Below, piece after piece: positions 1,349-53,290 of a DNA stretch of 64,000 nt (its first letter is position 1; each line of letters begins with the position of its first letter). This stretch comes from Tetmemena sp. SeJ-2015 (Eukaryota > Ciliophora > Spirotrichea > Sporadotrichida > Oxytrichidae): contig JAJKFJ010022837.1 in NCBI GenBank assembly GCA_027382625.1, forward strand, positions 124,001-188,000, written 5' to 3'. The notes under the pieces are model-generated. The model searched no databases. It saw nothing but the letters and a program-made list of their open reading frames with translations, and was not told the origin of the DNA. A program made the position numbers and the translations under genes.

Positions 1349-4213
1349 TCAGTCTTCCGATTTAAAGTGGGATGAGACTGAAGTGGAACATGTACTTTTC
1401 CTGTGGCATGAATAATTAAATTTGAGCTCTCCTCCTATGTAAAAGTCATCTGACTCTTCAATCATAAATTCAGAGTCAATGACCATTTCAGACTGATTCT
1501 CAATCTCCAGCTCCAAATCACTTATAATAGAGACTAGTAAAAGACTCCTCGTTTAGAATTCTCAGCTTCAGAGGGATGTCGATCAGAGTTAAGGGAGGAC
1601 TTGGAACTATGCACTGAATCAACTGCGAAGAATGGCATTACTGGTCTAGCTATATCGAGTTGTACGGGTCCTCAGAAGGATTCAAGTCCAATAGATCACT
1701 TGTCTAATTAAATCGGAGAATTTCAATTTTCGCTTTTTAATTAATGCTTAGAACCAGTTGATGGTGATGCTTTGATTCCTAACAGTTGTGGTTCAACACT
1801 CTGAGATATGGAATACCATGAGAAGAGAAGCTCTCCGAACTGATCAATTTCTAGCTTTTTCTTTTGATTACTTGCAGCATTATGTGAATTAGACTCTGGA
1901 GCATTCTAAATCTTGACTCTGAATATTTGCTCGAAACTTTCCCCAGGAGAAAGTCTCACAGTGTCATTCGTTCCTCCGCTAGAGAGCAGAGTTGAAACTG
2001 TGGATACCCTTTCAACCCTGGAGGTGTCGGTTATCTCTAGATTGACTCCTTGCAAGCAAACATCTTTGCTCACACTTTATGAAATGAAGGTGCAATTCAA
2101 CCAGCTTTCTTCATTGTTAGGAGCAACAAGAGTAGATAGTTAACTTATATGATTTCGAAGTTTCAAGTTTTGGATAAAAGGATCCGAATTCTTAATGATA
2201 AGAAATTTTGAATGGGCTCACACTGTGAATTTTAAGTGTCTTGCGATGACTCTGTCTCATATTTTTACTCCAATTTTATTATGCTTATCAGAATTCTAAG
2301 TAAATCCATATCTAAAAATTAGGTTGACAGTTGTGACACCTTCAGTGTATATCTTAAATCCAAATCTGAGTTTTCTAGTATCTATATGCATATCTAGCTT
2401 GTTCCCTTGCTCTGTCTAGTAATCTACTTCTTGCATTTCTTTGGATTCTCTTTACTCTTCGCTTGTGCCTGGAGATCCAGACGGGTGGGTGTTTTAATAA
2501 TTCTCTCACATTTATTAAATAATAAAGAGCTCTCTCGAACCACATTCAAATTCTTGAAACTTCCGACTTGGCTTGATATCTCTTTATTCATATAAATTTA
2601 AGACGAGGCTAGAGTCTTAGAATCATCGATTAATCAAACCATCAAGTTCTAGTTCTCTAACTAGTTCGGACTAAAATATTCTTTAAGAATTTAAAATTTA
2701 AAATTATAACTGCTGCCATTTTCTTAGCCCAAATGTTATGTTGCTTCTATCGAAACTCCATCTACAACCACACTCATCTCTGTTAATGTAACATCTTCTG
2801 GCTCGAAGGAAAAGTATTCAGGGATTTATACCATAAGCAATTTACTTTGAGAGACTTGGCTTTTCATGATTTGGACTAGGGCTAAATACTTCGATCATAA
2901 CCTCGGTGAGTTGAACGAAGTCCCTCGGTAAGTTGATTTTCCTTGGATATGTAAAGCTCCCTTGAAAGAAATATGGGCCTATTCTTAGATAGCATAAAGT
3001 CTCCTTGAATTTCTTAGTTCATGGTATTCTCATTGAATCTTAGTATTACCTTTTTAACAGGAATTTCAATAAAATCATATTTGAACCAAGATAAAACTTA
3101 TTTCTTGCTCAAGCTGAGAACATATTTCAATGTTGAGCTTATTGTAATTATTGACTTGGATGTTTGACAAGTCAAAATGAGCTCTTGACCACAGCAACTT
3201 TGGTCCAACTATCTAACTTATAAGTTGTGAATTTGCTGGCTTAGCGTTGGCAACTTTGCTATCCTCAGCCTTGGCTTCCTCATGAAGGAGACTAAAGTCT
3301 TTTACTTTTTGGATGAGATCGTAGAATCTTGTCTATCTCTCTGCATTTGTCAATACTCTATCATAGTTGAGTATCTCCATTTCATAAACGAAAACATCCT
3401 CCATGCTCTCTTTTGCATTGGATTTAGCTTTCTCGACGAATTTGAGAGCTTCTTATATCCAACCCTCTTAAATCAAAGACCTTGCAATCTATCTAAAAAC
3501 TTTAAAGCTTTACTAAGAATACTAATTTATACGCTATCCTCTGTATTTCTATGTCTTAACTCCGTTCTGATCAGTCTAGGCGAGCACGAATTCTGAGATG
3601 TGATAAGTGATAAAATGCACCATTCTTCTAAATACCAATCCCGCATTGCCCTTCATCTGTCTCGACTTGCTCTTATACTTTAGAAGAAAAAAAAGCTTTT
3701 ATAAACCAATTAAATACTAAGAAATTGCTTTCTAGGCATAATCAAGTACAAGAGAATCAACATCGCAGATAGTTTCTTGATATATCTTGTATTTTTCTAC
3801 TAGAAACTTTTGATCTGTCTGAGTCTTAGAGTTTCCTCCCAATGGGTCTCTCAAGTCCTAAAGTATGACATCCTTGCCTATGTAATTGTACTACTTTGGT
3901 ACCATGTTAATACAAATGGATTAACAAGCTAATTACAAGTCTGGATATATGTTAGTTAACAGACTTATATTTATGATAGATATATGTTCTACATTTCAGC
4001 CACTCCTTTGAATAGGTCTATAGTAGGATTGTTGCTTGCAAAGGAAACGAGTCTCTGAAACTCTTATTTTCTCGCAATCTGAGTCCTTTCTTAATATATA
4101 AATACCTCTTTTCAAATACACTATCGCTATCAATTAAGATATTTTAAAGTTACCTGATTGGAGGCTGCTCTTGTGCTAACTAAAATTAATTAATTATTAT
4201 AATGATGTGGCAT
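1349..4213 (-). CDS. Large protein, possible TRAPP II/III subunit (TRAPPC9/10/11-like)
   Basis: Long minus-strand coding locus. The ATG at 4213-4211 begins MPHHYNNQLILVSTRAASNQ. After an IES with pointer TCAG the frame continues through IARKQEFQRL, a putative ATG-pointer IES near 3903-3995 and a long helical region (ARSLIQEGWIQEALKFVEKA). Beta-rich segments follow, such as PVKKVILRF near 3070 and ITDTSRVERVSTVSTLL near 2000. Helical repeats followed by Ig-like strands fit the large TRAPP tethering subunits of ER-Golgi traffic, but no motif is diagnostic. Coding changes frame near 3100, 2900, 2200, 1700 and 1500. Only some of these have been matched to pointers, so extra short IESs, sequence errors or decay remain possible. 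The last in-frame TGA is taken as 1351-1349. Confidence 0.4.
4083..4157. other. IES, pointer TCAG (CTGA on +)
   Basis: CTGA occurs at 4079-4082 and 4154-4157. On the minus strand its removal joins AASNQ directly to IARKQEFQRL in frame. Confidence 0.65.
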
Positions 4214-5066
4214 CCTATTATACATTTATCGTTTGATTTTTGAAATTGTAGAAATATAATCAACTTTTGATTAGTTAACGAATTAATAATCAATTAATTA
4301 ACGATTCCCCTAAGGGGTATTCAGGCCAGTAGACATATAACAGTAAGTAAAAAATTTTTAATAGAGATTAGTAAGCTAAAATTTAAATATAGAGATTAAC
4401 TATATATAACTTACTTCAGATTTAAAAAAAATTAGAAATGGAGTTTTTTTCTCCATTACCCCTGTGGGCCCTCCTGATTAATTTTCTATTTTAATAATTC
4501 CCAAGCCCGCCCACCACCCAAACACGTGCAAGACAACTACAAACTAGGTAAATAAATATGCTTCTTAATTTCTATAGATATATTTTAGAGATCAAGTCAA
4601 GAAAAATAAAAACTCAAAATATTTCAGGTGCTATATAAGATGGAGTTCCACAGAATAAAATTAAGATAATAATTATTCTGAAAAACATGGAGTAAGTCAA
4701 AAATTATGTAATTATTTTAAATCCTTACTTTGCTTTCTTTTAGGTTTTGTGCACGGCGAGGGTGGTGGGTGGGCCTGGGAATTATTAAGATAGAAATTGA
4801 ATAATTGGGCGTAGAGATATACGAGAGAAAAATTTTCCATTACTAAAATCCGTAATGTGATGTAAGTTAATATAACAGATGTCTTTATTTATAATTTGGC
4901 TAATTAATGACTTATTGATATTAAGGCTCACAGTTATATATCTAATGGGTGAGTTCCCTAATGGCCCTATTTATTATTTTTTAATTCCCATTACGTTATT
5001 AACTACATTCTTAATATAGTTTTTACAATTTCAAAAATCAAACGATAAATGCATAATATTATCCAA
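4214..5066. mobile_element. Degenerate inverted-repeat element, about 850 bp, non-coding
   Basis: The outer ends match as inverted copies: TATTATRCATTTATCG followed by TTTGATTTTTGAAATTGT at 4216-4250, and its complement at 5022-5064. Further inside, a C-rich block at 4470-4535 (CCCGCCCACCACCC) is mirrored by GGGTGGTGGGTGGGCC at 4758-4776. The arms are therefore roughly 300 bp each and partly diverged. No coding frame is seen. ATCC flanks both ends as a possible 4-bp pointer or target repeat. It fills the space between the end of the RGG/FG gene and the ATG of the TRAPP-like gene. Confidence 0.65.
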
Positions 5067-6240
5067 AATCAGACACTGCGTTATTGCTTGCTTAGAGACT
5101 TGACCCGCCAAATAATTGAGAAGTCTAATTCTATGTAGTTACTGTAGTTCCTGACACCATCGTGACATTGCCAAAAGTATTCTGAGTGCTCTGTAAATTA
5201 TTAAAATAGTAAGATTAATTTGACTGTTTTAAATTAGGTTGACTACCAAATGCACCAGAGATTTGCATTGAGTTCTGTGACATATTCAAATCTTGATTCT
5301 AAGCTTAGCTTATCTAACCAAACTGGCTAAATCCTGCTCCTCCATTAGGTGCATTACTTGCACCACCGAGACCTCCAAAGGCCCCAAAGCCTTGAGCTGA
5401 TGAAGCTGCTGGTGCGTTAACTCCAAAAGCTCCACCTTAGTAACCTTATGCTGAAGATGATTATGGAATCTAATTCAAGACTGAGGGAATATTCTACTGC
5501 TGGAAAGCTTGAGGCTGGACAAAGGAAACTGCTCTGCTTTATGGTGCAGGTTGATTGAAGCTTCCTTAATTCTGTTAGGGAGCTCCGCCATAGAATCCTC
5601 CGAACCCTCCTCCACTTCCAGCGTTCATTCCAGAGTTTGCTTGATTCTCAAATGGAAAAGTAAATACCTCAAATTGTGATGGAGCATCATCTTGCATTGA
5701 ACTATCTCCTCCAAATCCGCCTCCTCTTCCCCTGCCATAGCCTCTGCCACGTCCACCTCGATCATTTACTTCATTATATTATATTGATCACCCTAATAGC
5801 CTCCTCTGTCTCCTTAATAGTTTCCCCTTCCTTAATAGCCTCCCCTATAACCACCTCTGTCGTTTTAACCTTGGTAGCTTCCTCTATCATTCTGACCTTG
5901 GTAACCACCTCTATAGCCTCCTCTTTCATTCTAGCCCTGATAGCCCCCTCTGTCATTTGAGCCCTAATAGCCTCCTCTGTAATTTGGATTGCCGCCTTCA
6001 AATCCTCTTCCCCTGCCTCTTCCTTATCCTTGGAAACTTTGTTGCTCTTGATTCATGTTTTATGGCTAGAATTGATTTTGTTAAGGCTATTATTGCTGCT
6101 AGAAGTTTTAGTTGCCTCCTCTGTTTCCACCTCTGTATCCTCTGCCCCTCTACCCTCCTTGATCTATATAAATTTATAGAAATATTATTTTGATCAAAGG
6201 TCCTAGTTTGCGCTTGCTGGACTTACGCCTGAGAAAACAT
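5038..6240 (-). CDS. RGG-box and FG-repeat protein
   Basis: ATG at 6240-6238. With three short IESs removed, the frame reads an N-terminal Q-rich part with RGRG and RGGN motifs, then about five repeats of the type NDRGGYQGQ, a GRGRGGGFGG stretch, and a C-terminal half rich in FG, GGF, Q, N and S (GAFGVNA, GFGAFGGLGG, FSQFGQ). RGG boxes bind RNA and are methylation targets; FG-rich tails occur in nucleoporin-like and hnRNP-like proteins. No RRM or zinc finger is visible, so the exact role is open. The last in-frame TGA falls in the arm of the neighbouring inverted-repeat element (5040-5038), so the true 3' end may differ. Confidence 0.7.
5195..5227. other. IES, pointer ACAG (CTGT on +)
   Basis: CTGT occurs at 5191-5194 and 5224-5227 around an AT-rich insert. 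Removal joins PNLKQ to STQNTFGNV on the minus strand. Confidence 0.6.
5765..5790. other. IES, pointer TGATC (GATCA on +), 26 bp
   Basis: GATCA occurs at 5760-5764 and 5786-5790. Without removal the RGG repeat loses its frame. With removal the frame reads GYQGDRGGRGRGYGRGR. Confidence 0.75.
6165..6195. other. IES, pointer GATCAA
   Basis: TTGATC on + at 6159-6164 and 6190-6195. Removal restores TFDQGGQRGRGYRGG near the N-terminus of the RGG/FG protein. Confidence 0.7.
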
Positions 6241-11489: not shown

Positions 11490-14400
11490 GAGAAATGATC
11501 GAGAGAAGAGCAGTGAGAGTAGCTCTGAGGATAGCGCAGAAGGTGATAATGATGCAAAAGTCTTTGGCTTTATTAACAAAGTAGATAAATTGCGTGGCAT
11601 AGATGGCAGAGTCAATATTTTTAAATCTGTCTCTGTTTTTTCTCTCTATTTTTAAGTCAAAGCTATTCTAAATTTGAACAAGCAAACGTATAATGCATAT
11701 ATTTTTGCTCTTTGTATGAGAACAGAATGAGTTCAAGACAGTTAGATAAAAAGCAAACTCACTCTTAAGATAAACTAGGTACCTCTAAAATTGCTACAGT
11801 AGTAAAATCTGGTCTTATGAAAATGATCCCGAGTGCAGTTCAAAACAGAACTGTACTTCATTCCTCAATTGATTAACTAGCAACTCACAGACAGAATGAC
11901 TATCATCAGGAATTAGATCTCAATGTGCAGGCTGGCAAAAATCTTGTTAGCAGCCACCAGACTATCTCGGTTGACAAACTGCAAAGCTATAATATAGAAG
12001 CTAACGAAAATGGAAACTCTTCTCAAGCTTTTGAATAGGACAATAGCTATACGTTTGAGAGTCCAGATGGAGCTAAAAGAAACGTAAGCATAAGTGCTAT
12101 GAAGGGCATGAATAGATATAATGAACTCTTATAATTGCTATTATAAGCTTTTCACTTATATAGATATGGGAGTTATTAAGGGAGCCAACTAATATCAATG
12201 AGATAAAGCCAAACTGTAACGGCCAGGAGGTATGCCAAATTCGTAGAGGATGAAAAGCTCATGCAAGATACAGAGAACGAACTCAAAAACATGGATAAAC
12301 AGGCCTTCGATAAAATGAGAAACCCTAAAAATTCTCATTGAAGATCTAAAGCTTAAGATAATTTTAGAAAACTATCAATATCTCCCATATATTTACTTCT
12401 AAGCATAAGAGTGATTCAGAGGAGTCTGATAGAAATTTACCTGGGAGAATTAATTACTAAAAGCCACAACTATCAAATCAAGAATATTTAAAACTCTACA
12501 ATCAGAAAAATGCTACTCATGATGGAGATAGAGAACGAGCTGGTAGCATAGTTGCCAATCTAAAAATGCCTAAGACTAAGAGCTTTCAAAATAACCCTCT
12601 GTTTAACAAGAATAAGAAACTCGAGAAGAACTTAAACTTGCATGCTCAAGATCTCTACGCAATTTAACAAGTCTAAGAGGGTGATATCGATTTTCTTAAG
12701 AAAGCTAATCAGTATGATGAAATTAAATTTTCTTTGCTATCTATTCTGGCTTAATGATGATCAGATTTTTACTTAGAACATGGTAAAGGAGCTTGAATAG
12801 CAACTACTTCTTGAAGAACAGCTCACCTCTATTCGAAACAAACACGGCCAAGTTAATAAAGAAAGCTTTTCACACTTTCTAAAAAAGATAGGTTTTAAGG
12901 GTAAAATATTCAATAAGAATCTCAGATAAGGAAAATCAGGAGAGGATCATCAACTTGACCATCAAGAGCAATATGAAAAATCTCTGACGAAGTTTCAGTA
13001 GATGGTTAGAAAAATAGCAGATTAAAGGGACAAGTAGCGCGCAGAATAGTTATTTGATAAAAACAGATAGGCTATCATAGAATAACAAATCAAAGCACAA
13101 AAGAAGTTCAAAAATGAGGATATTATAATAACTGACAAGCAGATAAGAGAACTAATACCTGAGGAGTTAGAAGTGAAGATGGAACTACCAAAGAATGCTT
13201 CAAATTTGACTAAGGAAGTGTCTTAATTAAGGCCTATATAACTCAGGAAGCTATTTGGCTTGAAAATTAAAGAGATGGAGAAATATAGAAGGGAGGGAGA
13301 ATTGGACAAGTTTAATTCTAATACGATCCAAACGAAGTAAAAGCAAGCTGATATGCAAGAATACAGACAGCATGTAAGGGAATAACTCCTTGAGGGACAT
13401 GAATGCTTGCTAGATAAGTCCTTGGAATATACTGTCAAACTACCTAATATGTGGAAGAAGCAACTCTAAGAAAAGTACAAAATTAAGGAGAATGATATAG
13501 AGCCTTTCTTCCATGAGAAGGTAGACATGTATTACGAGAAATGTAGAAGCTTGAAATTAAGAAGGAGACAGTAATGGATCTTAATTATAAGGAATACATG
13601 AAGCAACGACAGTCTGTTGCCGCAATCATTGATTAGAAGAAGGTTGAAAGCAATATTTATTATATTCATATTCATTTAGCAAGAACCAAGATACCAATGA
13701 GAAATCTCCAATAAAGTCAGCTAAAAGAGTTAGCTCTATCGGTGCAAATGATTCCATCCTTGGTCTTCCATCAATAATAGAGGACAAAAGTTTGCAAAAG
13801 CTCCCCTCACCTCAAAATTTTTACAGCTCAATCCAGGATATATCTCAAATTTAGGAGAGCCAAGTCTCCGTTTCTCCAAAGCTTTTGAACTCGAAGAAGA
13901 AGATTTTTCACAAAAACTCTTCTATGATATATTCATCCCACGAAAAGTCCGATATCATTAAGAACAGCCAAAACCTTTCCCACATTCGAGACTCCTCTAC
14001 ATTTACTTCTCGCCCCAAATAGAAGTCTAAGAGACTTTAAAAAAGCAAGAATAATATGCAGCTGCCTTATGTCTATGACTCTTCTATAATGAGTTTCTAA
14101 TCTAGTCAGCGATAGTCCTACAATTCTTCAGCACTAAGTAGGTTGAATAAAGTTTTCGACGATACTAAAGTGGAGTCTTAAAGGATATATGATTCTACTC
14201 GGAATATCTACAGCAACTATTACAACAACAATTCAGAGCGCAAATATCTGAGCAGACTTTCTGAGTCGAATGAGAATTTGAGATAACTTAATCAAATAGT
14301 TAAAGAGAAGATTAACTCTCATATTAAGGAGAGAGAATCAAGATAGGGACTAAGGAAAAACAAGACTACAAACCAAACTGAAGGGGTTACTCCAATTCAT

Positions 14401-14898
14401 AAGATGAGTACATTTTTATAATCAGAGTTTTATGTTAAAGCATTTGTATAAAATCATTTTTGGATAATGCAAATCCAACGAATATCAGTGGAGGAGATGG
14501 AAGTTTTCACACTCGCTAAGGCTCTTCTATATCCCAGTTCCTTTTAGGAAGTAATAGAGGAGCTTAGCCTTAGTCTATAAATGTGTCAATTCTTGGAGAA
14601 GGAGGAGCTAAGATATAGCCAGCTTTGAGATTGAGTAAAGTTCAAGAAAGAGACAACTTGATAGATCTAAATAGCTTTGAAATTTATAAGAATGATTTTG
14701 ACAAAAAAGTGATAGAATGTTAAATATTTTGTAAAATTCAACTAATTGTTAAAAGAATGGTGCGAGGATGAGCTTAAATCGCTAAACACAGATTACTAAA
14801 GGCTTAACTACTATGCTACAAAGAAGCTTTATATTTTATTTAGCCGTTTTTACATAGGATAATAGTACGGTTTCTTATCTAGTACTTTTAAGTGCTGA
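11490..14898 (+). CDS. Q/K-rich coiled-coil protein, tandem paralog 2
   Basis: Second copy of the preceding gene. The blocks are KRNDREKSSESSSEDSAEGD near 11490, NPLFNKNKKLEKNLNLHAQD near 12590, EMEKYRREGELDKFNSNT near 13270, KENDIEPFFHEKVDMYYEK near 13490, NKVFDDTKVESQRIYDSTRN near 14150, and LKEWCEDELKSLNTDYQRLN near 14755, ending at TGA 14896-14898. Similarity to paralog 1 is clear but far from identical, so the duplication is old. The start is uncertain: a TGA lies just upstream of the first block, so the first codons may come from another segment. Function is unknown. Confidence 0.6.
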
Positions 14899-15172
14899 GA
14901 TTTGAAATTGATTATTAATTCCATTCCTAAAATTTTACTTTACTTTACTATTTAGCCGTTTGGCCTTTAGAATAGAATGTCCATGCTCAGAGTATGATAA
15001 TATATTCTCCTTCAGCTTTAAACCCAGTTTCTTTAACCCTAAATTACTTTAATTTTTTGCATAACTGTATGATTCAAGAGCTTGATAAAATATCACCTTA
15101 CTGAATAAATAAGCTTACTCGAATAGAGAGAAACTATACCCACAAGAGAGATAGTGAATTGCAATTTACTTT

Positions 15173-16459
15173 TCACTTATGCACTTTCATAGGCTCGCAT
15201 ATAAATTATATTTGATGATGCAAGGAAGACGCAACACTAATCATCCGTTTTCTTCTGCTTCTTGCATTCTCTAATGATTCTTACTTATTTAGTTTTTATA
15301 GTCTTTCAAACCTTATTTTCATTTTTCTCAGCGCATTATTTTTTCTATCATCTGTCTTATTTATAGTCTCATTGTTAGGATTACTGTTTAATATAGATAA
15401 TTTAGTATGATAAATTAATCTGTTGGTCTATATAGGAATTCGCATTCGTTAGTCCTAAGTTGCTGGCACTCTTAGTGTCGTCATTAAAAGTTAAAAATAA
15501 TTATTCACTAAGATTAGAGAATGAAAAAATGAATTACCTTCGGCTCCGTGAAGACTGCTTTTGAAACTTGCATCTGGCTTGAAGCTTGTATTTTACTTGC
15601 TGACACCGAACGCTAAACTTGGCTACTGTCCAAATGACATAGGGTAGACTGATTCTCTTTGTTGAACTTTCAAGCTATAAAAGTTTTTAGCATTACTGAA
15701 TGAGAAGAATAAAAATTTAGATCCATTTCCAGGTTGATGCATCTACTTACTCGGTCTGTGGAGCGAAAGAAAGTGGAGCCCCATCATGATAATCAATTTG
15801 CTAATTGCCATGAGTATTCAACCTTTGAGTCCCTTGATTACTAACATGGCTGCTTGGAAAGGGATTAGCATAGATCTCCCCAGATGGTTATTGTCCTACC
15901 TAACCACTTAAATGAATTAAAAGTCTTGAAATAAAATGAGAACTTCCTTTGTTATCACTCTAGAATTTCTGTTGAGTGTAGAGAAGAGATGTTGTAGCTA
16001 AAGATTATCCTCCCAAGTCGTCACTGCTATGATTTTTCCCAGAATCATTTTATTTGTCTACACTCTGCATGTATGTCGCTATACAAAAGTTCTTTAGTTC
16101 ATCATTTGAATCGTTTATATAAGAGAATTGCTAACGCTTATTTATAAGTTTAGACTAGAATCTGAAAATCTAGAGAATCTGAGCGATTATAAAAGCTCTT
16201 AGCATTGAGGAATGATGGCTCATTCTTACCTCCATACTTGAAGACATTCAGATTTGTGGGCATCTGTTACTGCTATTGACCGGAATTTCCAGTGGTTGAG
16301 TTTTGTAAATCCTTCTTAAGGTATTTATCGCTTGATTAAAAGCCGATACCTTATTTTATATAAGTTAAATATTGATTAGGTGTTCTATGAGGAGGCATTG
16401 CTTTCTGCATTGTCTCTCATGTCTTTGTGATTTTCTTGCTTTACACAGCACGCTCCCAT
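15173..16459 (-). CDS. Unknown protein with MGACC lipidation motif
   Basis: Minus-strand gene. The ATG chosen at 16459-16457 gives MGACCVKQENHKDM, a classic N-myristoylation (Gly2) plus palmitoylation (Cys4, Cys5) context that suggests membrane anchoring. The body is rich in Q, S and N (NSTTGNSGQQQQQMPTNLNV, GEIYANPFPSSHVSNQGTQ). The C-terminus is a basic coiled coil (RKMKIRFERLQKLNKQESLENA) ending at TGA 15175-15173. Frame changes near 16215 and 15735 indicate introns (GTAAG follows KYG) or IESs. The family is not recognised. The frame is also open upstream of the chosen ATG, but the lipidation context favours this start. Confidence 0.55.
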
Positions 16460-16747
16460 TATTAGAGTGCCTTTTATTACTAAATTGTTTCCAATTAACT
16501 TACTATCTAGAGCATATCTCACTACTATCTCATTCAGATATTATTTTACTTTGAAAAGCAAAGCCAGTTTTTAATTAAATTTCTAATCTTTTCTTACATT
16601 TAAATCCAATCATCCATCACTGGTTAGTTTAAATTTGTGCGAAATGGGTCGGATAAGAATGAGAGTGCCAGCGATAATAAATTGACTAAAATATTACTAA
16701 TAAATTACACAACAGGAAATAATGCTAATTTTATTTCTCTTTAAATA
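16460..16747. promoter_or_regulatory. Shared divergent promoter region
   Basis: 288 bp between two divergent genes. It is AT-rich, with no clear single motif that I can defend. Confidence 0.3.
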
Positions 16748-19504: not shown

Positions 19505-19865
19505 TAGTTTATTATAGCTGAGAATTTAATAAAAAAGAGAATTAAATTAGATATTAAATTAAAATGGAATAAATCACTTGCAGTTGAAGTGTGTCCAATT
19601 AAATAATAATTACGTCTTTCGATTCAGTATCAATTTTTAGAGCATTTTATCCTATAAACTTTTGTGTGGGAGCGCTCAGCAAAGAGTTATAAGTGACACA
19701 AGTTTAGATGAAGATGATGAAGAGGATGAAGAAGAATGCATGAGTCATATATCGTCAGTGAAGTACTGGGAAGATAATTACAAATTAATTTTTAATAAGT
19801 ATTAAAAAAGCTGCAGATCAGGGGTGAATCTACGATTTCAACTTCCAGGAATTTGCAACTCTCCA
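19505..19865 (+). pseudogene. Duplicated fragment, copy 1 (5' region of the gene near 52.4 kb)
   Basis: About 350 bp that match 52440-52696 plus 53193-53290 in inverted orientation. The coding part keeps the same frame in both copies: CGSAQxRVISDTxL, then an acidic run and EEC. Many differences fall in third positions. Copy 1 has four G where copy 2 has five, which puts TGA in frame after AADQG. Copy 1 is followed by non-coding DNA, so it looks like a truncated duplicate. A short independent gene is the alternative. Confidence 0.55.
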
Positions 19866-19964
19866 TTTATTATTTAATTAATCATCGATTTTAAATAAAA
19901 TTCCTACTATAATTATTTTATCGCTCTCACTTGTATTTAATTTCTATCGTTGCATTTTGAGTCT

Positions 19965-32297: not shown

Positions 32298-32587
32298 AAG
32301 AGTTTGCTTATTGAAGAAGACTTATCATAAACTGCAGAATAGCTATAGAAATTTTCATATCACTTATACAACAACAGTTTAAGTACTCGATTAAGAATTT
32401 ACATTCAAACATTGTGAAATGTAATCGCAATCATCTATCGAATATGGTTGATAATGATATTAAAAATATTATTTGAGAATTGCGGTAGGGGCTGAAGAAG
32501 CAATAATTGATGATAAAGGTCATTAAAATATTTATTCTGGGAGATAAAGAGCTCTTCTTTTAAATTCAATTGTAATATTCATTAAAA

Positions 32588-34414
32588 ATGTACAGAGACC
32601 CTCGTTTAATGAAGCGACCCAGACTCGATATGGGTAGGTTTGGAGCTAACTAATCGTAGAGTGGATCAAGAACTGCTTCTTCATAGCAGTCTTCTCAAAA
32701 GTCTAACTTCACAGGGGTGGCTTTGTCACAACTCCCTTTCAGTATGCAAGCTCAGCAATAATTCATAAGAAAGGAGCCAGATGTAAGATTCTCTCAAGTT
32801 AAATTACAAGTTTATTAGGAGCCTGAGATAAAGCCAAGACAAGTAATATTGGATGAGCAGGGGAGACTAGTGGACGAGCATGGAAATGTCTTAAATGTAA
32901 AGAAGGCTACAGAGCTGAAAGTCAACTAGAATTCTCAAAAGGACAACAAAGTTAGAGACTTACTCAATCTCAAAAGATTTGGGCAGGTGTCTCAGGGAGA
33001 TATTCTTCAGAAGAGGAAATTCTATGATCCTTCACTTGATACTGGCAGCAAAGCTAACAAAAGAGATAAGCGCAAGAGTGGAGCTTTCAACTTCGTTGAG
33101 GAGGGACAGTTTGTGAAGAGAGCTGAATAGCTCAGGAAGAAGCAATTGATAGAATAATATGAAGCTAAGAAAGCGTAGGAGAAGCTCTATGGGAGATCAT
33201 CTTAAAATTTGGTTGAAGGGGAGAACTTAAATGCAAATGAAAATGAGGAAGAGAAGAAAGCTCAAGGAGACGAAGTGAAAGTAGAAGACAGAAGGATGGA
33301 GAGAGATGAGAACACAGGCAGGATACAGATTAGAAAAACTGTGAGTCTGAAGCCATTAGACCCCATCCCAGATTTCGAATGGTGGGATGCTGCTCTACTC
33401 AGAGAAACACAGGACGAATAAGTTCTCCAAAGGAGAGCTGCTGGGCAGATAGAGGAGGATGACTTGTTTGTGGAGAAAATCACACACTTCATTCAGCACC
33501 CTGTGCCTCTAAAGAATGATTACGTTGAGAATATTAACGAAATGGTAATCCCAATTAAACTGACAGAGAAAGAGAGAAAACGTCTCAGAAAGATGAAAAG
33601 AACTGAGAAGGAAAAAGACAAGCAAGAGAAAGTCAAGTTAGGTCTAATGCCTCCTCCTCTTCCAAAGATCAAGCTTAGTAACTATATGAAGGTCTTAGGT
33701 AAGGAGGCAATCGCAGATCCATCAAGAGTTGAGCAATAGGTAAGAGCCTTAGTTGATGCTAGGCTCGAACAACACTTGAAGAGGAATGAGGATAACAAAC
33801 TCACTAGGGAATAGAGAGAGGCTAAGATGAAGCGAAAGCACGAGAGAGATATTACAAATAACGAGGTGAGGGCTGCTTTATTCAAGATCGACCGCCTCAC
33901 CTAACCGCATATTAAATTCAAGGTTGACATGAATGCACAGTAGTATCATTTAGGTGGATTTCTATTCATAGCTGACTATAACATGGCACCCTCAGACCTT
34001 CCCAACCTAGTTCTGGTAGAGGGTGGTCCCAGAGCTATCAAGAAGTACAAGAGATTAATGTTGAGGAGAATTAATTGGAATGAAAAGTCCAAAAAGAGGC
34101 AGATTAATCAAGGTCAAGAAGAGGAGGGAGAAGGTGAAGGGTAAGAGAGTAGTATTTAAGAGACCACAGAAGCTGAAGATGACATCGATGATGTGAAAGA
34201 GTCCAGAGATAAAAAGTGCTTCCTAGTCTGGGAGGGAATAGTGAAGAAGAAGAATTTTGAAAGATGGAGAGTAGTCGACATTAGGAGCGAGCAAGAGGCC
34301 AAGCGTATTCTCGGAGAGAAGGGTTGCGAGCATTACTGGACAATGGTTGCAAATTTCCACCCCGAAAGAGCTTTGGGCGATGATCCTATGGAATTAGAAA
34401 AGGTTCTAATGTGA
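32588..34414 (+). CDS. PRP3: U4/U6 snRNP protein PRP3
   Basis: One uninterrupted frame of 608 residues from ATG 32588 to TGA 34412-34414. PRP3 binds the U4/U6 duplex in the tri-snRNP and is needed for spliceosome activation. Hallmarks: an N-terminal basic/Q-rich part, KPLDPIPDFEWWDAALL, HPVPL, KLTEKERKRLRKMKRTEKEK, IKLGLMPPP-type PPPLPKIKLSNYMKVLG, and DPSRVEQQVRALVDARLEQH. The C-terminal DUF1115 region has LVLVEGGPRAIKKYKRLMLRRI, VWEGIVKKKNFERW, and a terminal ILGEKGCEHYWTM. Glutamines encoded by TAA/TAG are frequent. No IES or intron is seen, which is notable in this window. Confidence 0.95.
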
Positions 34415-46242: not shown

Positions 46243-49200
46243 TCATTTTGCAGCCATCTCCTACTCTAAAATCTTATTTACCAAAATTTGAGAATTCAAG
46301 AATCGATTCTTGAACTCATCCAAACATCTCTAATCTGATATATTAGCTATTTTCTCTGCCAAGGATGGCTTTCCAACTTAGCTTTAATCTTTAATCTCCA
46401 TGATTAAATTTAGACCAACTTTCTCTTCATAATGAATTAATTCAACAAAATAAAAAGCGAGAGAAATAATACAACACATAACTAAATTCATGCATTTAAT
46501 CTTGGAAGGTATTTCTAATACTTCCATAAGATCGGTAACTATTTCTTTGAGAAACAATTTAGCTTTGGAGATATCTTTATAACAAATTCAGATTTATCCA
46601 CTTCTTTATTTTAGATCACAAAAAATCTCCTCTGTTAATTTATTATTCTTACAATCAGGGTGGTAGTCAAAATTTAAATGTACGTTAGATTCGCGACGAT
46701 GAGCTTGCTGATGGCGTGACTGGAAATGCTTGGCGGTTGGAAATAATATGTTCTATTCTAGGTGGAATTTAATTGGAAAGGAGAATTAATTAAAAGTACG
46801 CCATCATTAAATTAAAAACATCAAATTAGCAAATAATTAGTCTGGAATATTGGAATATTGGAATATTCCAATCTTTGGAAACTGGAATATTCTAGTGGCA
46901 AATAGAAGGAAACAATCAGAATCGGGCCAGGAATACTTAAGAGATGTCCGTAATTAGGGCGTAGAAATATTCCAATAGTCTAAAGTGATTAGACTCGGAA
47001 GTGAGATATATAAAAGAGGGTGTGAATATTCAATTATTATTTAAAACATCGGTGACTCTAGAAAATGAAATACAGCATTCGCAATCTCAACGAAATAATA
47101 TGCAACCTATAAAAGAACACACAAAGAAAGATCCTAAGTCCTACCACAGCAAGAGGGCCTTCTTCAATCAGCTTAGTATGGTCCTGACTCCAGACCAAGC
47201 TTTGTAGCTTTAAGATCAGCTATAAAACTAATTTGAAGAGATTGAGCAGACCCCGATATTCGAAACCACTGGGAATAAGCAGCAGTTCTTGGTGATCCTT
47301 CTGAAATAGAGCTCCTTTGGCAGAAGCAAGTAATACTTTCTCAATATTAACTACGCAGGAAGAAAGTATTTGGACGAGTTGGGGATTCACTGCACAGGTA
47401 TCAGCCGCAGCAATCTTTCGAAGGCAATCAAGTAAAATGGCCCTGCGAAAATGCTTGTTGGAACTGCGGAGCGCATTCTAAAGGAGCTTGAGTGCAAATA
47501 GAAGAGTCCAGCTGTTGAGGGGTAAATCAATATAGCAGAGGAGGAAAAGGAAAGCGATTCAATTTGCCAGCAAGTAATTCAGCTCATTAGAGAAGGCAAA
47601 GTCTTCAGTTACCAGGACCTTTTCAATAGAAATATGGGCGACTCTGTCACGAGTGAGATGCTGACTGACCGCAGAAGGAAGCTAGAAAGCTTATTCAGGC
47701 TCTTTAAAAACGCAGGTGTCATCAAACAACAGAAAGTGGACCACATCGAGCAGCTGGTGATGTACTTGGAAAGAATGAGATTGGAGCCTGCCAGAAAAGC
47801 AACAGCCAATTGTGTTTCGGATGAAGTGATCCGCCATTTCCAGCTTAGAGATGCGTTGGACGCCATTTACGACATCATCATCTTGCAGAGTGATCCAAAA
47901 ATGAAATGTGTCTGGCTTCACGGCCTCAATGGGACTGGCAAAAGTTCCCTAGCAAGACTACTCGAATAGATCTTCCAGTCAGAGAGATTAGAGGAAGTGG
48001 ATGACAATTTCTGCCTGGATTAGAAATCGGAGGGAATACTTCCCACTCTGGCCATATTGGACGAAATCAACTGCCCGATCTTCTTCAGAAAAAAGAGCCT
48101 GGCAAAGATGAAGCGGTTCCTCGAGGGCTCAGGATTTGTACTAAATGTGAAGCACGGGGAAGCAGGCAAGCGATTTGTGGGCTGCTCTACTTTGATCACC
48201 TCAAATGAGACACCTTTGAGACACATGAGTGAGCTGGACAGAGGTGCGTTCTTGGCTCGAGTTAGATTTGTGGAGATGCACAGAAGCAAGAACTACACCC
48301 AGAAGACTTTCCCTTTGAACGCGGATCAACTCGCACTATACTTTGAGCAGAGACTTATTGAGGATGGGAGGATCACGGCTGGTGTAGGAGAAGAAATTGA
48401 TGAGCTCATAGACACCTGCACACAAGACTTCACGCTAATTGACAAGGGAAACTTCTTATGACAATCAATGAGAATGTATGATCGCTAATGCAAATAAGTA
48501 TTTCCCTAAGTAATTTATTAATACATTATATTCACACCCTCTTTTATATATCTCACTTCCGAGTCTAATCACTTTAGACTATTGGAATATTTCTACGCCC
48601 TAATTACGGACATCTCTTAAGTATTCCTGGCCCGATTCTGATTGTTTCCTTCTATTTGCCACTAGAATATTCCAGTTTTCAAAGATTGGAATATTCCAAT
48701 ATTCCAATATTCCAGACTAATTATTTGCTAATTTGATGTTTTTAATTTAATGATGGCGTACTTTTAATTAATTCTCCTTTCCAATTAAATTCCACCTAGA
48801 ATAGAAGATATTATTTCCAACCGCCAAGCATTTCCAGTCACGCCATCAGCAAGCTCATCGTCGCGAATCTAACGTACATTTAAATTTTGACTACCACCCT
48901 GATTGTAAGAATATTGTTAATTATCTTTCTTTTAAGATTTTTCCTCCTCCCTTTGATTAGAATTCTGCGCTTACTAAGAATCCTTAACTTCCTTTTTGTC
49001 GGCACTTTAAGAACTCTCCTTTTTCTTTTCATTTTTGGATTTATCTTTCTGATTCTTATTTGGAGAACGCCATAGCTTAAGCAAGTCAAAATCAAAGACA
49101 GTCAACTATCTTTAAACTATCTGTATCTACGATTATGATAAGTATTTAGAAGAATTCAAGCAACAACTTGTCTTCTATTTTAAGACTAACATTCTAAGTT

Positions 49201-52200
49201 TTCTAAAGTTTAAATACGAAATTTATTATTTCTTGCAACATTATCTATTGAAAAATATAGGATTCTGAAGTTATTTCAATCGAATTAACTAAGATTAACT
49301 CAAGATTCTGCGTGTAGTAAATTAAGAAATCAAATTCATAACTAAGAATCTTGATTCTATGAACTATCAAGTATAAGCTTACTCCTACTCATTATCTCCT
49401 CTGTCCTTGGTACTCACTAGTATCTATATTTTACTGTTTATCTTGTGATCTTAGGTTTTCAGAGAGAATGTTCTCTGGCTTTATTTTGGAATCTCCCCCC
49501 ATTTCTGGGGTGTTCCTTTCGTTATACTTTTTCAAATCCTATTCAGTCACTTCCTTATCCTGCTCCTACCTTCTACGGAGTTCTTATCTGTGCTTAGTTT
49601 GAGCTATCTACTTTTTAAGTCTGTCGTCAGATGACAACCCTACATTAAAAATACTGCTAAATATATCTCTTTGAATAACATCCTTGAGAAAGTCTTAGTC
49701 AGGACTCTACTCGAACTCTCCCTTGTATTTCTTGCCAAGTTAAAATAAGTCCTCCGCAGTTCTGTCTGTCTTCTTCAGCAATCCTAGAGATTCCTTCAAT
49801 TAGAAAATTGATAAATTAGCTTAGTTAATATTAATTATTGCTTAGCTGATTTCCATCTATCTTGCAGAAAAGAGAGACTCCTTATGGGCGTTTGCTAAAT
49901 TTAAAAGACTTGATTTTCACGAAGAAGCAAGGTATTATTGAAACTACAACTTAGTTTTTGATATCGCCTCATGAGTTCAAGAATTTTAATTTAAAAGTAT
50001 ACCATCACCTTCCTCATCATTCATTCCTATAGATGAATTGAAAAAGGAGACTTTAAGTTATTAATCTTAATAGATTAGTTTCATTAACCATAGCTAATCA
50101 TATAAATATAGTGGGCATTAAAAAATCAAGAAGCACGAGGTCAATTCTTCTTGAACCAATTGAATCCTGAGTCTGCCGTCTTGCTTGAGCTATCCACCTT
50201 GTATTCCTCCTCTCTATCAATTAAAAACTCAGGAGGGGGCATCTTATCTGAAATCAAGTCAATATTTATCTATGAGGAATTTAAGTTTCTTAAGTTAAAT
50301 ATATTAATCTCACAATATCGTTTGAGAGCTCTTTCATGGCTATGGTTTCTGAGTCTATGAAATCATTATTCATTTTTCCCTTGAAGTGGGAATAAGATCC
50401 TATGTCATGGTGTCTCTCATTGAATTTGTCTGAGGATCCACTTAGCTTAGAATCCTTATTCAATGCCTGAGCAGCGCCTCTCTTCAAGTCATCAGCTAAT
50501 CCCTGCTTATCGGATTTAAGGTCGAATGAAGAGCCACTAGACTTAGAAGCATTGGTTTCTCTAAAGAATCCTCCAAAACCATCCTCTTGCTTTTTCCTAT
50601 TGCCATCAAGAATCTTCTAAACAGTTTCTTTCCCCTTGCTAAATGGCAAAAGGGGGGGGGCCTTTCCTCGTCATCCACTTTTTTCATGAAAATATGAAAA
50701 ATCACTGTCTTGCCTAAAATTAGCCAGAAACACCAATTTTTTAGTCCTAATTCAATTTAAGAGGGCTTATCACGATCATATTCTTTAATTAAGAAAACAT
50801 TTAGAACCTTCGAGAAATATTAATTTATAAAAAAAATTAAAATTTAAAGGAGTGGCAACATCACTAGGATAATTAATTCATTCACAAGTTGAAGATATCA
50901 AATGTAAAAAATAAAAAGTAATCTAACCACCTTATCACAGTTTTCGAGTCTTTTTCACTTTTAGTATCCCCTAATAGCATAATCTGGGCTACAAAATATA
51001 TCTAAGTCATTTTATTTAAGTAAATACATATTGTTCTTTAATTGTATGATTAAATATGTAATTTCATGTATTTTAGATTTCTTTCAAAATATTCTAGAAT
51101 TGAATATCGAAACCTTAGCTATTAAATAGCAGTAAGCATGTATAAATGAAATTCATCTCATTTATAAATGTCTTTTGTAGAATTGATATTTTCGGTAGTT
51201 AATTATTATCTTATATTTTGAAAACATATATTTTTATTCAATAAAATAAAGTCTTTATTCTATAAAATTGCATTTAAAATACAAAATTTTGTCTTACTGA
51301 TTCTAAATAAATTAAGCTTTATTTTCTAAATTAAAGAATATGATCGTGATAAGCCCTCTTAAATTGAATTAGGACTAAAAAATTGGTGTTTTTGGCTAAT
51401 TTTAGGCAAGACAGTGATTTTTCATATTTTCATGAAAAAAAGTGGATGACGAGGAAAGGCCCCCCCCCTGGCAAAATATTATAATGAATAAGAATAAGAA
51501 ACAAGAATAAGTTTCTTAGGATGATAGCATCTTGAGAATTCATATAGCACTTACTCAGCTAAATCAAAAGATGAGTTTTGATTTTTTTATGAAAAACTGG
51601 CAAAAGGAATTGAGATTTAGGTGGATTATGAGAGGCCACAAAGAGCCTTGAATCGAAGTTTGGTCAAATTATTCAGCATAGCTTTAATTAATTATTAAAG
51701 TCACTTAATCTAGCAGGCAATTGAAAAGTGTGAATGAAATTAAACTAGTAATAAAATCAAGACAAAAATCAGATTAAATTGAATTGTACTAGTTACAGCA
51801 AGAGAGTAAAATTCTCTTTCTCAGCTCGTTCTTGGATCTACAATTGCTGTTAAGAAAATATTTTATAAACTTACTAGAATCGAACAATCCTTTCTTGATA
51901 TGTTAAGTCAATGGTTGAGTAGCTCTTGAACCCTAAGTTTCTGAATCAACGTTGTCATTTTTAACTCTTTCCTCGGCAATTTGTTTGAGATCATACGGAA
52001 CCCCGGGATCTCTTTACACGAGAGGGTCGAAAGAATGCCCCACTAAATTCTCCAAGCCTTACCTATCTTGCATTTAAATCATGTGATGAGGGTTGTCAAA
52101 AGATGGATCAGTAGTTTTAAATATAGCAAGATTCATTTAATTAAGAAAGTTTTGTAAATGTAATGTCTACCCTCATATCCTACTGCACCTTTATTTAAGT

Positions 52201-52345: not shown

Positions 52346-52439
52346 AGAATGCGCTTGATTTTTGTCTTGTTAACTATAGTAGAAATTTTAATTAAAATCG
52401 GCGATTTGTTAAAATAATAAATGGAGAGTTGCAACTTCG

Positions 52440-53290
52440 TGTCAGTTGAAATCGCTGATTCACCCCCTGATCTGCAGCTTGTTCGATAGCTTATTGAAAA
52501 TTAATATGAGTTTCTTCTTTAATCATCTTCATAGCACCTCTCAGCAGTGAGATATTACTCACGCACTCTTCATCATCATCTTCATCATTGTCATTCAAAT
52601 TTGTGTCGCTTATAACTCTGTACTGAGCGCTCCCACACAAAAATTGCTAGGATGAAAAGTTCTTAGAATTTCATGCTGAATCGAATGGTGTAATTATGGC
52701 TCAAATACGATTACTTTATCGGAGGTAGATACAAACAAATGCAAAAAAATATATTATTCTCACATAACAGCTGTAGAAGACGAATTTAGAAATAGGAGCT
52801 AAAGCATTTTACTCTGAATTTGAGATGAATTCGTTGACTTTGGCTATGCTCTCAGGTAATTGCAATTTTACATCTCCTTTAAAAAGTTATTATCTTCAAT
52901 TAATCTCTTTGCGAACTATGATTTGGATTGTTTATATTTCAGAATATACTTACTCTTATGCTTTATTCAGTGTTCAGCATTTCGAATTATCATTCTCTCA
53001 TTACAATGTTTGTTAGGAGTGGGCCAAGAAAAACTTTCAATCATGTCGCATTTTCTTCTTTGAGCCAAATGTGAATTCTTACCATCTTATTAATGAAAAT
53101 AATTATCTAAAAAATAATCAAGAATATGAACTATTTAAACTACATTTTATGAGTTTCTCTCAACCTCCGATCAAATAATCGTATTTTAGCCATAATATTT
53201 GAATTTGACACACTTCAACTGCCACTCATTTATTCCATTTATATTTAATATTTAATTTAATTCTCTTTTTTATTAAATTCTTAGCTATAT
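52440..53290 (-). repeat. Duplicated segment, copy 2 (inverted relative to 19505-19865)
   Basis: Similarity to copy 1 covers 53290-53193 and 52696-52440, read on the minus strand, and is split by an inserted 496-bp element. The coding part reads SSQQFLCGSAQYRVISDTNL and an acidic run, then AIEQAADQGVNQRFQ. This copy lies directly upstream of the host gene and may encode its N-terminus. Confidence 0.6.
52697..53192. mobile_element. 496-bp TA-flanked inverted-repeat element
   Basis: The ends are TGGCTCAAATACGATTACTT (52697 onward) and, inverted, TGGCTAAAATACGATTATTT (ending at 53192). The repeat runs about 30 bp, to CGGAGG. TA lies on both sides (52695-52696 and 53193-53194). The inserted DNA is absent from copy 1 of the duplicated segment, which serves as an empty site. 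TA flanks and short inverted repeats fit a Tc1/mariner-like non-autonomous element. No conserved coding frame is seen inside. Confidence 0.75.

Follow-up and report, generated by a model that had tools for sequence, protein, structure and literature searches.

The genome of Tetmemena sp. SeJ-2015 contains a family of small elements that we read, with a probability of about one half, as germline mobile elements whose only gene encodes an SF3-type initiator-helicase, which insert at TA and are copied as linear replicons. One copy lies in the window analyzed here, i.e., the 64,000 nt at positions 124,001–188,000 (forward strand) of contig JAJKFJ010022837.1 in assembly GCA_027382625.1. If this reading is true, an initiator-helicase without a nuclease of its own can sustain a large family of mobile elements in the germline, and virus-like replicons, DNA transposons and ciliate IESs would be linked in one small testable unit. 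For studies of origin recognition, the family would also offer initiators and iterons that vary in matched, naturally occurring sets. More tentatively, and at somewhat less than even odds, these elements might constitute a new class of mobile DNA, helicase-only replicon-transposons, each with its own initiator and an iteron origin in each inverted repeat, copied linearly, borrowing transposases through module exchange and hidden in genes by somatic excision.

The element in the window and its relatives

The preliminary description of this DNA reported inverted repeats of equal length and near-identical sequence, which is what we find (Table 1); the element bounds it gave, 46641 and 48914, are corrected here to 46644 and 48913, with both TAs included. 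The element has a single gene. It contains no capsid gene and none of the PolB, integrase and capsid genes that make up the Polinton/virophage set, its next-largest wholly internal frame being one of 189 codons, antisense, at 46821–47390. A DDE transposase gene is likewise absent according to a profile scan of the encoded protein. The TATA-like box at the inner end of the left arm is a putative promoter.

Table 1. Features of the helicase element, in window coordinates.
Feature	Position	Strand	Details
Whole mobile element	46644..48913	.	2,270 bp from left TA to right TA, both TAs counted
TA copies	46644-46645 and 48912-48913		Deduced from the empty sites of five other copies
Left terminal inverted repeat	46644..47029	+	386 nt; 2 mismatches to right arm
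Right terminal inverted repeat	48528..48913	-	386 nt
Terminal module type A, TATTCTTACAATCAGGG..., swappable	46644..46710	+	Starts of arm matches; comparison of copies
Terminal module, mirror copy	48847..48913	-	Comparison of copies; arm symmetry
Iteron array, 8-bp TGGAATAT, left arm	46843..46890	+	Repeat analysis across copies
Inverted iteron copy ATATTCCAATAGTC, left arm	46967..46980	-	13/14 positions match
Iteron array, right arm (mirror)	48667..48714	-	Sequence; arm symmetry
Inverted iteron copy, right arm (mirror)	48577..48590	+	Arm symmetry
TATA-like box TATATAAAAG, inner end of arm	47007..47016	+	About 84 nt upstream of ATG; sequence
SF3-type helicase gene	47100..48461	+	453 codons, ciliate code (table 6)
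Walker A, GLNGTGKS, residues 275-282	47922..47945	+	Alignment
Walker B, ILDEIN, residues 319-324	48054..48071	+	Alignment
B' stretch, K.K...EG.G...NVK, residues 336-351	48105..48152	+	Alignment
Motif C / sensor 1, TSN, residues 367-369	48198..48206	+	Alignment
TGTTAATT, left flank	46633..46640	+	Judged a chance repeat
TGTTAATT, right flank	48915..48922	+	Judged a chance repeat

Searches of the assembly that contains the window (146 Mb, 5,213 contigs) returned at least 53 matches to the left arm (153 first-look candidates, 40 scored), at least 98 to the window protein (455 candidates, 93 scored) and at least 104 to the protein of a distant member (449 candidates, 96 scored). Combined, the two protein searches give at least 125 distinct loci with identity down to 29%, a lower bound in which duplicated contigs such as C3586 and C1787 are counted twice. 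On both contigs one and the same copy occupies identical coordinates, around 11490–16675, between 400-nt flanks that match at 100% on either side, probably because of assembly redundancy. Such redundancy is the one point in favor of a retained sequence, an assembly artefact or a chance inverted repeat, an explanation of negligible probability that is refuted by 125 distinct loci with differing flanks, by empty sites and by intact genes under selection. The element is multicopy by both arm and protein searches, and the further copies with other flanks that the preliminary description had envisaged do exist.

Forty-one loci were examined closely (the window copy, L017–L036 and L045–L064), and an inverted repeat flanks the gene in 37. 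Counted against the replicon reading are the four loci without one, L027, L050, L056 and L061, two of which, L027 and L050, run into a contig end; several other loci have short arms, some likewise at contig ends. The open frame spans more than 400 query residues in 18 of the 41 loci. Analyses of ends and arms used 31 of these copies, leaving aside L025, L027, L029 (the same as L028), L050, L051, L054–L056, L058 and L061. The most distant copy examined, L066 (29.5% identity), has the same plan: its gene has 437 codons and its arms, 378 nt long, are 99.7% identical. L032–L035 are deletion derivatives that retain the arms and only the final part of the gene, which suggests that the arms alone suffice for movement with help in trans.

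More complex arrangements were also seen. At L023 a different inverted-repeat element (3093–4068, arms 98%) is nested within the SF3 gene copy, and L022 and L023 are apparently one insertion in two inverted contexts, a duplicated locus with flanks 95–97% identical. L067 (151–1564) and L068 (148–1453) are near-complete palindromes with arms of 580 and 569 nt, respectively, that are 100% identical. Both have termini and arm sequence common to the SF3 family and no significant match to the SF3 protein; their GC-rich inner arms are alike by eye. An RNA gene in these palindromes was considered and rejected on a single weak match (E 0.44, far below the gathering score), and no RNA gene was found in the window at the gathering threshold.

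Other repeats occur in the window. A second inverted-repeat element at 50651–51469, possibly a separate IES-like element, has G9/C9 ends, arms of 119 nt at 98% plus 34 nt at the ends, and GGCAAA on both flanks, and lies directly upstream of a minus-strand frame at 50254–50649. A 52-nt inverted repeat (87%, 765 nt apart) at 4203–5071 is possibly an older element, and 19513–19900 and 52387–53289 are diverged copies of a dispersed repeat in opposite orientation. In the assembly as a whole, TTAGGG-type telomere repeats are absent and C4A4 runs gave 18 matches on three contigs, all internal by coordinates, which says little about the host. TEBP_beta, a spirotrich marker protein, has five matches in the assembly (best 5.1e-69) and is found in 0 of 14 control genomes. 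Together with the genetic code and contigs as long as 276 kb, these matches indicate the germline genome of a spirotrich ciliate.

Helicase gene, arms and iterons

The gene runs from an ATG at 47100 to a TGA at 48459–48461, with 11 TAA/TAG codons read as Gln. Open frames are cheap under table 6, TGA being the sole stop, and the gene is backed independently by conservation and selection. The intact 453-codon gene and the motif order Walker A, B, B', motif C of the preliminary description were both borne out: across 15 sequences, the family motifs G..GTGK, ILDE.N, K.K...EG.G...NVK and T.N stand in SF3 order with key residues invariant or nearly so. The DUF5906 profile, which we take to represent an SF3-type domain, matches 15/15 members at E up to 0.1 and exceeds its curated cut-off of 27.6 in five of the six full-length members scanned (28.9–36.3, with L066 at 24.0). 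The SF3-type assignment therefore holds at the level of the family, though the window protein itself, at 21.2, is below cut-off. Matches to the RNA_helicase profile stay below cut-off in family members, and NPHP3_N (P-loop) barely attains it in L060.

Among 16 pairs compared, dN/dS was not computable in five and lay at 0.12–0.46 in the other 11; seven pairs had a dS of at least 0.09, and for these it was 0.12–0.26. These low ratios indicate that the helicase gene is under purifying selection, and therefore kept by it.

The N-terminal part is less easily placed. The family alignment suggests no HUH signature, with neither an invariant His in residues 1–240 nor a profile match, and on these grounds membership of the HUH Reps of Parvoviridae and CRESS viruses was rejected. 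As far as sequence can tell, the preliminary description was right in seeing neither an HUH nuclease nor a transposase. The main rival to the replicon reading is nevertheless that these 240 residues hide an unrecognised nuclease or transposase joined to the SF3 motor, so that one protein cuts and unwinds and the element is a self-sufficient transposon. In its favor are the single gene of intact copies, dN < dS in the N-terminal part too, the block G..K.YF...NY.G conserved in family alignments, and the lack of DDE_3 matches near the elements among the 150 scored (see below). However, the N-terminal ~240 residues have no Pfam match above cut-off in the three members tested, there is no invariant His, and no acidic residue is invariant among 13 sequences (several are nearly so). 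The conserved block could equally be an iteron-binding domain. We consider this rival unlikely.

Within a copy, arm substitutions amount to 1% or less in 24 of 34 copies (the 31 plus L066–L068), with a median of 0.5%; the ten copies whose arms are more than 1% apart, the worst being L045 (75.9% identical), L062 (89.1%), L026 (90.8%) and L022 (91.3%), count against the replicon reading. Linear replication would also keep the two arms identical. A clear 8-bp tandem array is found mid-arm in 26 of 31 arms, the five arms without one again counting against the replicon reading, and in 25 of those 26 an inverted iteron copy follows 76–159 nt further in. Four classes of iteron unit can be distinguished: TGGAATAT; TGGAACAT or TGGAACTT; TGGAATAA; and TGGACTAA. 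In 9/9 arms of the three minor classes, no other class matches the inverted copy as well as its own does, and in the main class (class A) it fits its own unit best in 10 of 17, ties in three and loses in four (losses counted against), related copies not being independent in these counts. In a first pass, the mean match over 14 positions was 12.4 for the own unit, 10.9 for units of other copies and 9.8 for shuffled ones. An array and inverted partner that change together by subfamily would be expected of initiator binding sites. The SF3 protein would thus bind the iterons and unwind from the element ends, as iterons, arm identity and selection together suggest, and would copy the element as a linear replicon.

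The outer ~70 nt of both arms form a module that is exchanged when the window copy is compared with L019 and others, the L019 protein being 94.7% identical, and many arm matches in the assembly start at query position 71 (46711). A self-folding hairpin was not supported: folded as a single strand, the one arm tested gave a z of -1.44, with 8/100 shuffles as stable.

Insertion at TA and position in genes

The preliminary description noted the 8-bp repeat TGTTAATT on both flanks of the element. It is present, and rejected as the duplication made on insertion. In the set of 31, the longest repeat shared by the surroundings of the two ends was 4 bp in five copies, 5 bp in 13, 6 bp in seven, 7 bp in five and 8 bp only in the window copy, so the 8-bp repeat is not shared; mismatched pairs of left and right flanks, taken as a control, reach 8 bp or more in 6.1%, and 1/31 is therefore chance level. 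Element ends mostly start with TATT or TATA in these 31 copies; they are unclear in L024, L026 and L045, and L030, L031, L046 and L060 have a one-sided mismatch.

Empty sites were sought by joining the flanks of 10 copies with one TA left and searching the assembly. Uninterrupted counterparts at 92–98% identity were found for five (L066 139/142, L063 139/142, L048 137/139, L035 138/147, L021 131/140), and read base by base all five have exactly one TA at the junction. The joined flanks of L063 had two further matches on C113 at 83%. The assembly holds no empty counterpart for L062, L034, L028, L049 and L053, which is counted against the replicon reading, and the right host flank at the window locus matches only itself, so that no empty site can be read there. 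The target-site duplication of the family is TA, 2 bp, as shown for five copies. Sequence differences suggest that the empty sites are other alleles or paralogues, and the insertions hence recent; a second reading is that they are excised somatic copies. Under either, what was gained or lost is the element together with one TA.

These junctions weigh on a further alternative, that of an integrated small linear virus or plasmid in which the element is the replication segment and other segments possibly lie elsewhere. End-joining integration is not known to give precise one-TA duplications such as those at the empty sites. In addition, neither a capsid gene nor an HUH signature is seen and no relative was confirmed in IMG/VR. 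Similarity to Parvo_NS1 at E up to 0.1 in 14/15 members (0.00048 at best; the members shown fall short of the cut-off), terminal repeats with iterons, arms that are near-perfect in most copies, and the sharing of termini by L067 and L068 without an SF3 gene are what it has to offer, and we regard it as quite improbable. The earlier characterization as a virus-derived or plasmid-like mobile element stands for the mobile element, and virus descent is not supported, given no apparent HUH signature in the N-terminal half, ordinary stability of the one arm folded and no visible capsid gene.

Tc1/mariner-type DDE transposases typically duplicate TA. DDE_3 genes are abundant in the assembly (the best 150 of 921 candidates were scored, all 150 above cut-off), and all of those 150, judged by eye, are more than 5 kb from any helicase match listed by the protein searches, the smallest distance being 5.2 kb, on C3177. 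Together these observations favor a trans-acting transposase, and, as duplication and module swap also suggest, a putative Tc1/mariner-type DDE enzyme would insert the elements by acting in trans on their terminal modules. The same TA duplication and abundance of DDE_3 genes, with the deletion derivatives and the palindromic copies that lack an intact gene, could also fit a non-autonomous Tc1/mariner derivative (a MITE-like IES) that captured an SF3 gene as passenger or accessory. Purifying selection, conservation down to 29% identity and subfamily-specific iterons are hard to explain for a passenger, and this alternative appears very improbable.

Copies within genes speak for IES behavior. 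L062 splits an ISWI-like gene. When it is removed in silico with one TA left, the gene reads as a single frame, and the translation aligns across the junction with ISWI-type remodellers (best E 1.7e-40; SNF2 domain E 1.9e-44). The alignment is gap-free at the junction itself, with a six-residue gap a few residues upstream, and leaving zero TA breaks the frame after 16 codons. Two cases are weaker: of three lengths tried for L066, one TA alone connects the longest open frames of the two flanks (81 and 134 codons), and L034 is compatible with one TA, other lengths also leaving long open frames. The L028 site is, by eye, presumably an intron of a Vps2/CHMP2-type gene. The elements probably have to be cut out of genes for gene function, and copies in genes would be tolerated through precise excision, leaving one TA, as the somatic nucleus forms.

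The window locus itself behaves otherwise. It had been proposed that the host frame is whole only after exact removal of the element together with one copy of the flanking repeat. Under the one-TA rule the presumed host frame reaches a stop after nine codons, which counts against the replicon reading, and the frame proposed earlier runs ~50 codons to TGA and also stays open for ~115 codons into the element (ORF 48569–49339). With TGA as sole stop, open frames are so cheap that this locus does not decide frame restoration. Since the one-TA frame ends so soon, the element may lie where a gene ends, within an intron or in non-coding DNA; the flanking pieces on both sides have no PDB and no Pfam match. 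Excision as an IES, as first suggested, is thus supported at the family level through L062, and not by the in-frame test at the window locus. IES behavior is a well-supported prediction for the family, with excision predicted strongly for L062 and, at the window locus, from family evidence only. The Prp3 splicing factor gene at 32510–34414 in the window is one uninterrupted frame (PF08572, E 1e-52), and the genome is therefore not densely interrupted everywhere.

Comparison with known elements

The papers considered for comparison were PMC9797194, PMC8354472, PMC9942856, PMC5182062, PMC3671162 and, for TBE elements, PMC4724952. Homologues were not found in the protein collection, where the best 8,000 candidates by shared words were scored per search, and neither the 26 pattern matches in viral contigs (IMG/VR) nor the 218 in prokaryote genomes were confirmed. 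Among the papers listed by searches of the open-licence part of PMC, no title or opening of an abstract described such an element, in agreement with the preliminary description, which knew of no ciliate element of this plan; an earlier description may exist outside that literature. A family of small helicase-only TA elements is apparently undescribed.

Parvovirus NS1/Rep and CRESS Rep proteins have an SF3 motor that acts at terminal or iteron-bearing origins. The present element differs in having no discernible HUH signature, no capsid gene and no significant fold in the one arm tested. With IS630/Tc1/mariner transposons the family shares the TA duplication (5/5 empty sites), but not an internal DDE gene. 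TBE elements end in telomere-like C4A4 repeats; the ends of the 31 copies mostly start with TATT or TATA instead. Tec elements of Euplotes have, like the present family, long inverted repeats and TA insertion; they are eliminated in bulk and are larger.

Tec elements belong to the Tc1/mariner family (PMC9797194), whereas the element described here carries a single SF3 gene. The TBE elements of Oxytricha, which have three ORFs, are likewise of the Tc1/mariner type (PMC9797194) and, like the present one, germline DNA elements of hypotrichs. Some virophages encode an SF3 protein without another recognisable domain and transpovirons are linear elements; virophages also have genes for capsid and packaging proteins, and the helicase of transpovirons is of superfamily 1 (PMC3671162). 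In contrast to this Polinton/virophage/transpoviron network, the element has 2.3 kb and one gene.

TA-bounded IESs of Paramecium and Blepharisma are removed precisely, leaving one TA. The mobile IESs and MITIES of these ciliates are described as TA-bounded, multicopy and located in genes, some families having terminal inverted repeats (PMC8354472, PMC9942856). They are tied to Tc1/mariner or Pogo, one with a tyrosine-recombinase-like ORF, or have no similarity to known proteins, and the word "helicase" is absent from the main texts (PMC8354472, PMC9942856). As far as those accounts describe them, they and the present family are alike in their TA bounds, inverted repeats, multiple copies and genic sites.
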